A DNA stretch of 5,014 nucleotides, taken from NCBI GenBank assembly GCA_946615275.1, contig CAMOHV010000146.1, positions 1 through 5,014 on the forward strand, given 5' to 3'. Under the pieces are notes generated by a model. That model was given only the letters and a program-made list of their open reading frames with translations. It had not been told where the DNA came from and did no database searches. Below, piece by piece: positions 2,230 through 5,014 of this stretch. The stretch is from an uncultured Verrucomicrobiota bacterium (GTDB lineage: Bacteria; Verrucomicrobiota; Kiritimatiellia; RFP12; UBA1067). The position numbers and the translations under genes were made by a program. Position 1 is the first letter of the stretch, and each line of letters starts with the position of its first letter.

Positions 2230-3618
2230 ATGGACACGTCACGCCGAAGGTTTCTGTCGCTTGCGGCCGGCGCGGCCGTCTGGAGCTGGGGCGGCGGGCG
2301 GATCGCAGTTGCGCAGGGCGGCGCGCCCGCCCTGCGCATCGGCGCCGTCAGCGACATCCACATACTGCTCAAGGGTAAGAAGGAGAACTGCTTCCAGTAC
2401 GGCGCGCACGGCACGTTCCGCGCCGCGCTGGAGTATTTCCGAGACCAGAAGGTCGACGCTGTTACCGTCACGGGCGACCTCGCCGACACCGGCAGGCTCG
2501 CCGAGCTCGAGATCGTCGGCAAGATCTGGCGCGAGGTGTTCCCCGGCGACAAGCGCCCCGACGGCGGCCACGTCGAGCCCGTCTTCATCTACGGCAACCA
2601 CGACTGCTTCGGAAGGGTCAAGGGCGTTCCGCTCGTGAAGCATGACTTCGCCGCATCCTGGAGGCAGGCGTTCGGGCGCGAGTGGTCGCCTGTGTACCAC
2701 GTGAAGGTGAAGGGCTACACCTTCATCGGCATGCACTGGGGGCACGAGAAGGATCTGCCCGCGTACATCAAGGCGCACGAGGCCGAGCTTGGGCTCGGGG
2801 AGGCGAAGCCTTTCTTCTGCCTGCAGCACCCCATCCCGAAGGACACGCTCTTCGCGCACTCCGGCAAATGGGGCGAGGACAAGGGGCAGGTCACGAAGTG
2901 CCTCTCCGCGTACCCCAACGCGGTCTCGCTCTCGGGCCACACCCACATGGCCACCACCGACGACCGTGAGGTGTGGCAGGGCGCATTCACGGCGATCAAC
3001 TGCTGCACGCTCGCGCAGATCAAGCCGCCGTCGAGGTGCGTGAACACGCCGTGGCGCAAGGACAGGGAGAAGCCCGGCACGATCCACCACATGAAGAGCA
3101 CGAGCCGCTACGGCAAGCAGGGCTACGTGATCGACGTTTGGCCGGACCGCCTTGAGATCGAGCGCCGCGAGTTCGTCTTCGGGATGGAGGCCGCGCCGCG
3201 GTTCACCGTCCCGATCCCAGTGGACGCGGCGGCGCCGGCGTTCGCCTACGCCCAGCAGGCGAAGAAGGCCGTGGCGCCAAAGTTCCCGGAGGGCGCGTCG
3301 CTTGTCGTCTCCGAGCGCGACGGCAAGGACTCCGACAAGAAGCCGGAGCGGCAGATCGTTCTGGAGTTCCCCTCCGCGACATCCGCCGGACACAAGGGGC
3401 GGGTTGAGCGCTATCGCGTGGAGGCGCTGCCCGAGGGCGGAGGAGAGCCTGTGTTCGCCTGCCAGGTGGCGCAGGATTCCTACTTCCATCCGATCGAGAA
3501 GATCCCGCCGAGGCAGCAGTGCGTGCTTGCGGCGGCGGATCTGCCCGCCGGGCAGAAGGTGAAGTGGCGCGTGACGCCCCTGGGCGTATTCGGCCAGAGC
3601 GGCAAGCCGCTTGAGTAG
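2230..3618 (+). CDS. Tat-exported calcineurin-like metallophosphoesterase with a C-terminal beta domain
   Basis: The protein has 462 residues, from ATG 2230 to TAG 3616-3618. The Tat signal is SRRRFLS (residues 4-10) followed by a hydrophobic stretch and a plausible cleavage near AVAQ (26-29). The full dinuclear-metal motif set is present: D42-x-H44 in VSDIHI, GD-x-A at 82-85 (D83), GNHD (122-125), H200 in LQHPIP, and GHTH (236-239). The metal sites are therefore intact and hydrolysis of a phosphoester is expected. The substrate cannot be read; phosphomonoesters, diesters and nucleotides are all possible. From about 350 to the end is a separate beta-rich region (RVERYRVEAL, DLPAGQKVKWRVTP, VFGQSG) with the spacing of a fibronectin-III-like domain, probably for binding or stability. 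The gene is third in the probable operon, and its product should work outside the cytoplasm alongside the oxidoreductase. No clear terminator follows the stop, so read-through toward rpsO is possible. Confidence 0.92.
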   Translation: MDTSRRRFLSLAAGAAVWSWGGGRIAVAQGGAPALRIGAVSDIHILLKGKKENCFQYGAHGTFRAALEYFRDQKVDAVTVTGDLADTGRLAELEIVGKIWREVFPGDKRPDGGHVEPVFIYGNHDCFGRVKGVPLVKHDFAASWRQAFGREWSPVYHVKVKGYTFIGMHWGHEKDLPAYIKAHEAELGLGEAKPFFCLQHPIPKDTLFAHSGKWGEDKGQVTKCLSAYPNAVSLSGHTHMATTDDREVWQGAFTAINCCTLAQIKPPSRCVNTPWRKDREKPGTIHHMKSTSRYGKQGYVIDVWPDRLEIERREFVFGMEAAPRFTVPIPVDAAAPAFAYAQQAKKAVAPKFPEGASLVVSERDGKDSDKKPERQIVLEFPSATSAGHKGRVERYRVEALPEGGGEPVFACQVAQDSYFHPIEKIPPRQQCVLAAADLPAGQKVKWRVTPLGVFGQSGKPLE

Positions 3619-3646: not shown

Positions 3647-3675
3647 TTGACTTCGGGGCGGGGATTTGGTATCAT
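3647..3675 (+). promoter_or_regulatory. Strong sigma70-type promoter of the rpsO-pnp operon
   Basis: TTGACT (3647-3652, 5 of 6) and TATCAT (3670-3675, 5 of 6) are separated by exactly 17 bp. TGG at 3667-3669 adds an extended -10. The predicted start is near 3682, giving a leader of about 148 nt before the rpsO ATG. Both near-consensus hexamers fit a highly expressed ribosomal protein operon. It lies 28 nt beyond the phosphoesterase stop, so rpsO is not simply the next gene of the upstream operon. Confidence 0.85.
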
Positions 3676-3700
3676 ATCCGCCGTTCCTGCGACCGTCTAA

Positions 3701-3712
3701 GGAGATTTCTCC
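3701..3712 (+). promoter_or_regulatory. Small leader hairpin burying a second SD-like sequence
   Basis: GGAGA (3701-3705) pairs with TCTCC (3708-3712). The 5-bp stem leaves a 2-nt loop, so 4 bp with a TT-centred tetraloop is more realistic. The 5' arm is part of TAAGGAG (3698-3704), an excellent SD far from rpsO. An in-frame TTG at 3716 opens a 19-codon frame ending at TAG 3773-3775, immediately followed by an ATG at 3776. Whether this is a translated leader peptide, a ribosome standby or anti-SD site, or chance cannot be told from one sequence. Confidence 0.35.
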
Positions 3713-3714
3713 CC

Positions 3715-3826
3715 GTTGCGGGCGTCCGCCAGTCTCAGCGGATGTTCGGATTTGCGCACGCGCGCATGCGGGTAGATGTCGGCGGACGCAGGCGCGCAAC
3801 AACAACAAACAACAAGGAAATCCGAA
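3715..3826 (+). promoter_or_regulatory. Candidate rpsO leader pseudoknot (probable S15 autoregulatory element)
   Basis: Stem P1 is GCGTCCGCC (3722-3730) with GGCGGACGC (3781-3789), 9 bp perfect. It is extended outward by GTTGCG (3715-3720) with CGCAAC (3795-3800), 6 bp, across a 1x5 internal loop. Stem P2 is TTCGGATTT (3745-3753), inside the P1 loop, with AAATCCGAA (3818-3826), outside it, 9 bp perfect. The order P1-P2-P1'-P2' is an H-type pseudoknot. P2' starts on the last bases of the SD and fills the spacer before ATG 3830. Loops are 14, 27 and 28 nt, long enough to be feasible; the 27-nt loop holds a GCGC/GCGC mini-hairpin (3754-3757 with 3762-3765). A competing hairpin, TCCGC (3725-3729) with GCGGA (3738-3742), would break P1. 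Known family facts: S15 represses its own mRNA through structured rpsO leaders, by a pseudoknot over the start region in E. coli and by unrelated folds elsewhere. The pairings are seen; S15 binding is inferred. Confidence 0.6.
3814..3820 (+). promoter_or_regulatory. Ribosome binding site that decides the rpsO start
   Basis: AAGGAAA lies 9 nt before ATG 3830, preceded by CAA repeats (about 3797-3815) that should be single-stranded. An earlier in-frame ATG at 3776 lacks an SD and would add 18 residues, including four Gln in a row, that do not resemble S15. Its codons fall in the structured leader, so 3830 is chosen. Confidence 0.85.
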
Positions 3827-3829
3827 AAA

Positions 3830-4093
3830 ATGAGTCAGATTGACAAAGCCGCCATCCGTTCCGAGTTCCAGCGCCACGAGCGCGACACCGGATCGTCCGA
3901 GGTGCAGATCGCCACGCTCACGAAGAAGATCCAGCTTCTCACCGAGCATCTCAAGAAGAACAAGAAGGACCATGCGTCCCGCTACGGCCTCATCCGCATG
4001 GTGAACAACCGCCGTTCGCTCCTCGACTACCTCAAGCGCGAGGACGAGGCGAAGTACAAGGAAATCATCGCCAAGCTCGGCCTGCGCCGATAA
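3830..4093 (+). CDS. rpsO: Small ribosomal subunit protein S15 (uS15)
   Basis: S15 binds the central domain of 16S rRNA early in 30S assembly and contributes to a bridge with the 50S subunit. The product has 87 residues, against about 89 usually. The family signature is nearly continuous: [10 protein letters not shown] (19-28), LTEHLK (37-42), KKDHASR (45-51), [10 protein letters not shown] (60-69) and the terminal LGLRR (83-87). The His, Asp and Ser that contact rRNA in well-studied S15 proteins correspond to H40, D47 and S50. The second His of the usual DHHSR is Ala here, and two residues are missing from the variable N-terminus. It has its own strong promoter and a long structured leader, and is followed after 21 nt by pnp, the classic rpsO-pnp order. 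Confidence 0.98.
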
Positions 4094-4114: not shown

Positions 4115-5014
4115 ATGCAAGGTGCAAAGCAGTTCAAGGTGAACATCGCCGGGCAGGATCTCGTGTTCGAGACCGGCCTCCTCGCGATGCAGGCAGCGGG
4201 CGCGGTGACGTGCTCGTACGGCGACACAACGGTCTTCACGGCCGTCACGAACACGGACACGCCGCGCGAGGGGATCGACTTCTTCCCGCTCCAGTGCGAG
4301 TACCGCGAGAAGTTCTACGCCGGCGGCAAGTTCCCCGGCGGCTTCTTCAAGCGCGAGGCGCGCCCCTCGGCGAAGGAGATCCTCACGGCCCGCATGTGCG
4401 ACCGTCCGATCCGCCCGCTCTTCCCCGACGGGTACTACAACGACGTGCAGGTGAACAGCATGCTCATCCAGAGCGACGGCACGCGCGAGGCCGACTTCCT
4501 GGCCGTGAACGCGTCCTCCGCCGCGCTGCACATCAGCGACATCCCGTTCATGGGCCCGATCGGCTGCGTCCGCATCGGCCGCATCGACGGGCAGTGGGTG
4601 ATCAACCCCACGCACGAGCAGAAGGCGAAGAGCGACATCGACCTCCTCTACGCCGGCATCCGCGGCAAGTTCCTCATGATGGAGGGTTCCGCCTCGGAGA
4701 TCTCCGACGAGGACTTCATCGCCGCCCTGAAGCGCGCCCACGAGGAGGTGGAGAAGATCATCGACCTCCAGATCGAGATGCGCCGTGCGCTCGGCAAGCC
4801 CGACAAGGACATCAAGGACATCCCGCAGCCCGCGGACAAGATGGACTTCATGCGCAAGGAGGGCGGCGAGGCCCTCGCGGCCGCGCTCCTCATCAAGGGC
4901 AAGCTCGAGCGCCAGGGCAAGGTCTCCGCCATCAAGGAGGACCTCCTCAAGAAGGTCTCCGAGAAGTGGCCCGAGATCGACGCCGTCGGCTTCGTGCACC
5001 TCTTCGACGCCCTC
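4115..5014 (+). CDS. pnp: Polyribonucleotide nucleotidyltransferase (PNPase), N-terminal 300 residues, cut by the window end
   Basis: PNPase degrades RNA 3' to 5' by phosphorolysis as a ring-shaped trimer and is a core part of bacterial mRNA decay. The frame runs open from ATG 4115 to the last base, giving 300 of the roughly 700 residues expected. The first RNase PH-like domain is recognisable: ETGLLAMQAAGAV (19-31), YGDT (35-38), PREGIDFFPL (50-59), YAGGKFPGGFFKREARPS (68-85, the conserved FF-R-R/K RNA-contact loop), DRPIRPLFP (96-104), NASSAALHISDIPFMGPIG (132-150) and GRIDG (155-159). From about 205 the sequence becomes helical and charged (HEEVEKIIDLQ), matching the all-alpha linker between the two PH domains. 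The catalytic second PH domain and the KH and S1 RNA-binding domains lie beyond the window. It sits in operon with rpsO. Confidence 0.97.
   Translation, partial: MQGAKQFKVNIAGQDLVFETGLLAMQAAGAVTCSYGDTTVFTAVTNTDTPREGIDFFPLQCEYREKFYAGGKFPGGFFKREARPSAKEILTARMCDRPIRPLFPDGYYNDVQVNSMLIQSDGTREADFLAVNASSAALHISDIPFMGPIGCVRIGRIDGQWVINPTHEQKAKSDIDLLYAGIRGKFLMMEGSASEISDEDFIAALKRAHEEVEKIIDLQIEMRRALGKPDKDIKDIPQPADKMDFMRKEGGEALAAALLIKGKLERQGKVSAIKEDLLKKVSEKWPEIDAVGFVHLFDAL

Follow-up and report, generated by a model that had tools for sequence, protein, structure and literature searches.

A conserved 5' hairpin in the rpsO leader of Kiritimatiellia, candidate sensor of a proposed new class of S15-responsive RNA

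A predicted hairpin at the 5' end of the rpsO leader, named here P1, was shown by comparison of relatives to be conserved and tied to rpsO in one part of the class Kiritimatiellia. Sequence comparisons further showed that the 5' strand of P1 has a putative second, distal partner in several clades, and that in the clade of the analysed DNA a putative stem (stem 2), formed between a strand after P1 and a following hairpin (P2) and a strand just before the AUG, covaries. We judge it somewhat probable that this Kiritimatiellia rpsO leader represents a new class, responsive to S15 and bistable. Its refolding would probably serve to limit S15 to the need of the cell. Leaders binding S15 serve to study, as a model, the way in which a single protein gains unrelated RNA partners across bacteria. 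If true, a further class would carry the U·G/C-G determinant in a new scaffold, with unrelated clamps on one sensor, and the evolution of sensor and clamp would be separable and testable.

Gene context and comparison set

The window, meaning the whole stretch of 5,014 nt analysed here, comes from an uncultured Verrucomicrobiota bacterium, and its leader and gene features described below lie on the + strand. The rpsO gene (3830..4093, PF00312, E 4.1e-34) encodes an 87 aa uS15 with the KKDHxSR segment retained. The gene starting 3' of it and leaving the window (4115..5014, PF01138 and PF03725) we take to be pnp (polynucleotide phosphorylase), from its domains and its position after rpsO. Upstream, on the same strand, are a Gfo/Idh/MocA oxidoreductase with a Tat signal (438-2024), a 45-aa rubredoxin (2060-2197) and a calcineurin-like phosphoesterase (2230-3618). 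A sigma-70-type promoter (TTGACT-17-TATCAT, 3647..3675) precedes the leader, and the rpsO transcript is predicted to start near 3682, as read off the -10 hexamer. The Shine-Dalgarno sequence of rpsO is AAGGA (3814..3818); the 16S 3' end in the genome of one clade member has the anti-Shine-Dalgarno CACCTCCTTT.

From the S15 protein scan, the best 80 loci were kept. The first 26 (L001-L026) were mainly metagenome-assembled genomes (MAGs) titled Kiritimatiellae, Verrucomicrobia or Lentisphaerae, several were titled just 'bacterium', and L019 bore the title Akkermansia muciniphila. L030 was titled Opitutia, and the titles of L027-L029 had no class name. The class set comprised 345 genomes of the class of G001 (L001), named here Kiritimatiellia because it also includes the genomes of L004, L005, L007 and L013. 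S15 was found in 298 of the 345 genomes, and 130 of their S15 places, mostly the best-scoring ones, supplied leaders. After merging those with identical last 120 nt, 161 sources (window, L001-L030, L081-L210) gave 132 distinct leaders. The bearers of the leader are uncultured bacteria, many from animal guts. G001 had two S15 copies (contigs C25 and C337), each with the leader, perhaps due to assembly duplication or strain mixture.

P1 is conserved and found at rpsO

P1 is a 37-nt core hairpin (3686..3722), with an outer helix (3686-3693/3715-3722), an internal loop (3694-3700/3713-3714) and an inner helix (3701-3704/3709-3712). It begins ~5 nt downstream of where the transcript is predicted to start. 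The core pattern YCUGCG[AG]Y-GUCUNAGGA...UCCC[CU]GNYG[CU]GG, with at most three and at most one substitutions tolerated, was found near the promoter in 101 of the 132 distinct rpsO leaders, its start being 97-191 nt upstream of the rpsO ATG. L027-L030 were among the 31 leaders without the full core by this pattern; L154, L179 and L187 escaped it and have a similar hairpin, with a different inner stem and loop. A -10-like hexamer was present within 40 nt 5' of the core in 93 of the 101 leaders and ended 8-12 nt upstream of it in 83, so P1 probably lies close to the start of the mRNA. Control windows placed 60 nt further upstream had 36 such hexamers, scattered.

A covariance model of the core (R1) gave 110 matches in 108 of the 345 class genomes at E 0.1. 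Of these, 107 were on the contig of a detected S15 gene, at most 414 nt away, and all 101 pattern-derived cores precede an rpsO ATG, placing the element in the 5' UTR of rpsO. The other three matches were two by contig ends and a weak one (E 0.0035) within a 165-codon open frame. In a phylum sample of 387 genomes, searched with strict filters, 31 of 32 matches were in the class set and the last was weak (G569, E 0.022). Up to E 1, R1 matched none of 74 loci, a set drawn from other bacteria and class genomes without the core. The window is among the sequences from which R1 was built; there, R1 scored 51.6 bits at P1 (E 1.6e-10) and also weakly matched 643-682 (11.3 bits).

The 69 distinct cores were thinned to 48. 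These had 26 cells with two-sided changes, compared to 18.8 in shuffles (9 of 500 as high), a control which, here and below, related sequences may beat even without structure. The percentage of paired cells was matched by 102 of 500 shuffles. Overall, the covariation of P1 was modest and rested mainly on pairs 1 and 7. Among the 28 thinned class-A cores, pair 7 was A-U in 12, G-C in 12 and G-U in 4, and the second and third pairs were C-G and U·G in all 28. Class B (33 leaders, chosen by a CCCT test, which omits L135, L114 and the L088/L090/L092/L094 group) had no two-sided changes in the local P1, and pair 7 was broken in 24 of the 33. The AGGA portion of the core was almost invariant. It is part of a strong Shine-Dalgarno-like UAAGGAG (3698-3704 in the window, ~130 nt 5' of the rpsO start), and by eye no start codon was seen at the usual distance 3' of it in the window.

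The C-G/U·G motif and the link to S15

The outer helix of P1 has two adjacent pairs, C3687-G3721 and U3688·G3720 (5' side 3687..3688, 3' side 3720..3721), which were C-G/U·G in 101 of 101 cores and in 48 of 48 thinned cores, an invariance partly due to selection because the cores were gathered with a pattern. Three leaders in which the local-partner pattern failed (L114, L162, L183) had the U·G in their sole remaining helix. The short leaders L114, L151, L162 and L183 fold only into a distal-type helix with a 5-nt bulge, and its second pair is again U·G in L114, L162 and L183.

The motif is of a type recognised by S15 in 16S rRNA and in the rpsO leaders of E. coli and mycobacteria. Passages of PMC10931766 (cf. 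parts of PMC4684408) describe U-G/C-G as the determinant present in both kinds of E. coli S15 target, rRNA and mRNA; according to passages of the former, it is crucial in mycobacteria too. At the matching place in 16S helix 22, the genome of one clade member has a U·G beside a C-G (paired by eye), with CCUGGAAC opposite GAGAGGG, as compared to CCUGCGAC opposite GCGGG in the leader; the 16S contig, being from a MAG, is possibly misbinned. The 16S search matched 2 of 20 genomes, with the S15 region located in one (L222). A mimic of the 16S three-way junction was not identified in the leader, and its likeness to the GU/GC or three-way-junction determinants of S15 targets lies in the C-G/U·G pairs, which S15 would use. 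From these sequence likenesses we infer that S15 is the ligand, a reading strengthened by the invariance of the motif.

An rpsO leader which does not sense S15, and acts as a 5'-end stability element, a thermosensor or a translation enhancer, seems to us quite improbable. The Shine-Dalgarno-like UAAGGAG with its almost invariant AGGA would fit such a role, and 5'-terminal hairpins often protect mRNA. However, feedback is suggested by the presence of the element almost exclusively at rpsO, by a wobble that is itself invariant, beyond mere pairing, and by pairing that adjoins the start. Moreover, several bacteria are known to autoregulate rpsO, according to passages of PMC10931766.

Stem 2 covaries, stem 1 does not

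The original prediction was an S15-responsive pseudoknot, built from two perfect 9-bp complementarities in interleaved order: stem 1 (3722-3730/3781-3789) and stem 2 (3745..3753/3818..3826). Both are present in the window, and stem 2 indeed covers the start region, where its 3' strand runs from the last Shine-Dalgarno base and stops 3 nt short of the ATG at 3830. The arrangement was also correctly thought unlikely by chance: two 9-bp stems in pseudoknot register occurred in 0.02% of 20,000 dinucleotide-preserving shuffles of 3682-3829, a figure for one leader, whereas a survey reads many. Of the shuffles, 5.6% had at least one perfect 9-bp stem and 1.4% had more than one; a stem reaching into the last 12 nt occurred in about 1%.

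The covariation expected in relatives was found in one stem and not in the other. In 17 sequences of the window's clade (set A1, used for the tests of stem 1, stem 2 and the rod fold described below), stem 2 had two-sided changes at 6 of 9 pairs, with 15 such cells compared to 3.3 after shuffling, more than in any of 500 shuffles; 82.8% of its cells were paired. Stem 1 had two-sided changes at 0 of 9 pairs, and its cells were paired at the shuffled level (68.7% vs 68.9%). It also clashes with P2 (3723..3744), a hairpin with 3723-3729 pairing 3738-3744, which has 7 of 7 pairs in 16 of the 17 clade members. Stem 1 was therefore rejected as a structural part.

For these reasons, the two-stem pseudoknot is very improbable as the functional, S15-bound fold. 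Its register in the window and the covariation of stem 2 argue for it, but stem 1 lacks two-sided changes in the 17 sequences, and L096-L098 keep just 2-3 of its 9 pairs. In addition, the 5' strand of stem 1 is the end of P1 plus the 5' arm of P2, and its 3' strand falls in the 3' strand of the lower helices of the rod, so the match may arise because these two folds share partners. With stem 1 unsupported and the conserved core lying upstream, the pseudoknot is not the conserved thing. What stood of the prediction is a structured, rpsO-specific leader with stem 2 over the start; P1, the promoter and a longer, competing helix of 11 bp (3719-3729/3738-3748, counting G-U) had been overlooked.

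Judged by sequence, 10 of the 17 clade members can form 8 or 9 of the 9 stem 2 pairs, and 5 or 6 pairs are left in L089, L095-L098, L193 and L110. The stem is lost in the close relatives L089 and L095-L098, and L193 can form a respelled stem, GAUGUAUUAC/GUAAAAUAUC, with one mismatch (by eye).

As a feature of all clades, start pairing of the stem 2 type was rejected. In a start-pairing test of 103 leaders, the mean z was -0.48, and of the 17 leaders at <=0.05, the window's clade accounted for 10. When the pre-AUG segments were swapped between leaders, 28 of 104 were at p <=0.1 (~10 expected) and 18 at 0.05. Nine of the 28 were scattered and 19 fell into three unrelated start-proximal stems, in the window's clade (10 leaders), in L154/L179/L187 (3) and in the L107 group (6). 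The stem is UUUGAGUCC/GGACUCAAA in L187, with similar ones in L179 and L154, and GGUGUU/AACACC in the L107 group. Because leaders within a clade are not independent, there are ~3 independent cases of such clamps.

A distal partner for the 5' strand of P1

The predicted minimum free energy fold of the window leader is a rod (3686..3792), with lower helices 3686-3691/3787-3792 and 3693-3697/3781-3785. Its apical pairing (3731-3735/3748-3752) ties up most of 3745-3753, the 5' side of stem 2, and thus rod and stem 2 are mutually exclusive. The rod had -57.8 kcal/mol, compared to -54.1 with the local P1 forced, a gap of 3.7 kcal/mol; the folding energy of the window leader plus some coding sequence had a z of -2.98. 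Two-sided changes were found at 7 of the 41 rod pairs, with 12 cells vs 4.2 and 0 of 500 shuffles as high. The apical pair in columns 50/65, for example, was U-A in 12 and C-G in 5 sequences. Further pair types were not above shuffles (373 of 500 as high), and the lower helix was paired in just 75% of cells.

In class B, the same 5' strand pairs with a CUUCCCGGUUCGCAG-like sequence near the start, in 99.4% of cells. This distal helix changes from A-U to G-C in four leaders and has more cells with two-sided changes than any of 500 shuffles; for further pair types, 342 of 500 shuffles were as high. A hairpin at the same place after the core, as P2 in the window, covaries strongly. With the non-local fold lower in energy by about 1 to 20 kcal/mol, P1 may form only rarely in class B. 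L168, in which the distal strand differs, was omitted from set A3. A search for distal partners by shuffling gave 18 of 101 leaders at <=0.05 and 7 at <=0.01; most class-B distal partners missed 0.05.

These helices bear on where S15 would bind. It is conceivable, though unlikely, that S15 binds the rod, or the UCUNA bulge of class B, with a different site or polarity and with P1 as a folding intermediate. The pairing and covariation of the class-B distal helix would fit, as would the conserved UCUNA bulge and the folds of L114, L162 and L183, which show the distal-type helix alone. However, the distal partner of U3 in class B is A in 17 of 33 leaders, whereby the U·G is lost, whereas the local P1 keeps the U·G in 33 of 33.

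Control of rpsO by a small upstream ORF (MFELAHARTG-like, ATG at 3742) is hardly credible. In 11 of 17 clade members, the frame runs uninterrupted to a closing UAG (by eye), but the window, L084 and L085 have it shifted, and L103, L193 and L110 have it altered. No Shine-Dalgarno was seen by eye before its ATG, and the UAG lies within a rod helix. A conserved small upstream ORF was thus rejected.

Predicted openness of the start and proposed mechanism

Openness of the start region (-18..+3) was predicted with the local P1 either forbidden or forced. Of the 101 leaders, 55 gained more than 0.05 in openness when P1 was forbidden rather than forced, 11 lost more than 0.05 and 35 stayed within 0.05; in the window it went from 0.59 to 0.81. 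Among 404 control sequences, made by shuffling the middle of each leader, 26% showed a rise and 37% a fall of this size. The mean change was +0.093 in real leaders vs -0.013 in shuffled ones, and in 45 of 101 real leaders the change was larger than in each of the four shuffles of that leader (20% expected). Averaged over the ten leaders that have stem 2, the change was +0.23, as compared to -0.01 after shuffling. The non-local fold was lower in energy in 74% of real and 75% of shuffled leaders, hence without excess.

For the S15-responsive, bistable leader which we favour, the following course can be proposed. Transcription would start ~5 nt before P1, so that P1 would fold first. S15 in excess of free 16S rRNA would bind P1 through the invariant C-G/U·G and keep the leader in the local fold of P1 and P2. 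This fold would free 3745-3753 to pair with 3818-3826, covering the Shine-Dalgarno and start (translation OFF). Without S15, refolding to the rod would sequester 3745-3753 and leave the start exposed (translation ON). The outcome would be feedback control of S15, perhaps also of the downstream pnp. We infer S15 binding and the ON/OFF polarity, the latter (P1 = OFF) from the U·G argument and the predicted openness.

More tentatively, and at somewhat less than even confidence, we propose that one invariant 5' strand picks either its local partner, giving the S15 motif, or its distal one, giving the rod that sequesters the strand of the start clamp. The leader would then act as a bistable switch driven by a protein, and clamps specific to each clade would have been reinvented repeatedly, as three unrelated stems, on one conserved sensor.

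Relation to known S15 leaders

The leader had also been suggested as a possible separate class, and database searches agreed: at the gathering score, Rfam had nothing in the window and nothing in the leaders of 12 relatives. The E. coli rpsO leader, presumably the Rfam family S15 (RF00114), differs in that this family was unmatched in the window and in the 12 relatives. An AdoCbl-II riboswitch (RF01689) was rejected, with 24.7 of the required 36.5 bits in the window and none among the matches of the 12 relatives; this sub-threshold match begins 3 nt before the -35 hexamer. A chance-level match to Six3os1_3 was on the other strand of the L191 leader (17.7 of 40 bits, E 1.3). In the literature, judged from titles, the beginnings of abstracts and selected passages and with subscription journals thinly covered, we found no rpsO leader described for Kiritimatiellia, Verrucomicrobia or Lentisphaerae.

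Chlamydia belongs to the same PVC superphylum. Its predicted rpsO leader is a hairpin overlapping the start codon, as given in part of PMC4137082, whereas the core described here lies 97-191 nt upstream. The E. coli and mycobacterial leaders are alike to ours in their place in the rpsO 5' UTR, a structure near the start and the U-G/C-G motif, in the relevant passages of PMC10931766. There, the motif is part of a pseudoknot; here, a 5' hairpin carries it, and a pseudoknot found no support. Among stem 1, which lacks covariation, and stem 2, which nests with P1 and P2, no conserved start-region pseudoknot of the E. coli type was found.

Passages of PMC4137082 and PMC4684408 describe the leader of the alphaproteobacterium Rhizobium radiobacter with a highly conserved 5' helix, a conserved loop, an apparent GU/GC motif and a second helix with the ribosome-binding site. 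By published description, these traits resemble those of the Kiritimatiellia leader. In Geobacillus/B. stearothermophilus and Thermus, S15 represses its own synthesis at translation initiation, as stated in part of PMC10931766, which is what we propose here. According to passages of PMC4684408 and PMC10931766, those leaders mimic the 16S three-way junction, unlike the present one, for which no mimic was identified.

Further observations on the leaders

A second promoter-like pair was present within the leader, its first base 83-93 nt before the ATG and 3' of P1, in 17 of 101 leaders (L101, L104-L106, L125, L128, L134, L136, L148, L152, L156, L160, L165, L174 and L205-L207), counted without a shuffled baseline. 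A transcript starting there would be without P1 and so would escape control. In 18 of 101 leaders (e.g. L093, L101, L136, L205), the 45 nt preceding the start hold the pattern GCGG...AAGGA...CCGC, which would set the Shine-Dalgarno into a hairpin loop. Finally, L164, L169 and L171, which are without the core, have another stretch shared in rpsO leaders of the class, ATCATTGGACACAAGTCAAAAAAGTTTAAA...GGATGACA.
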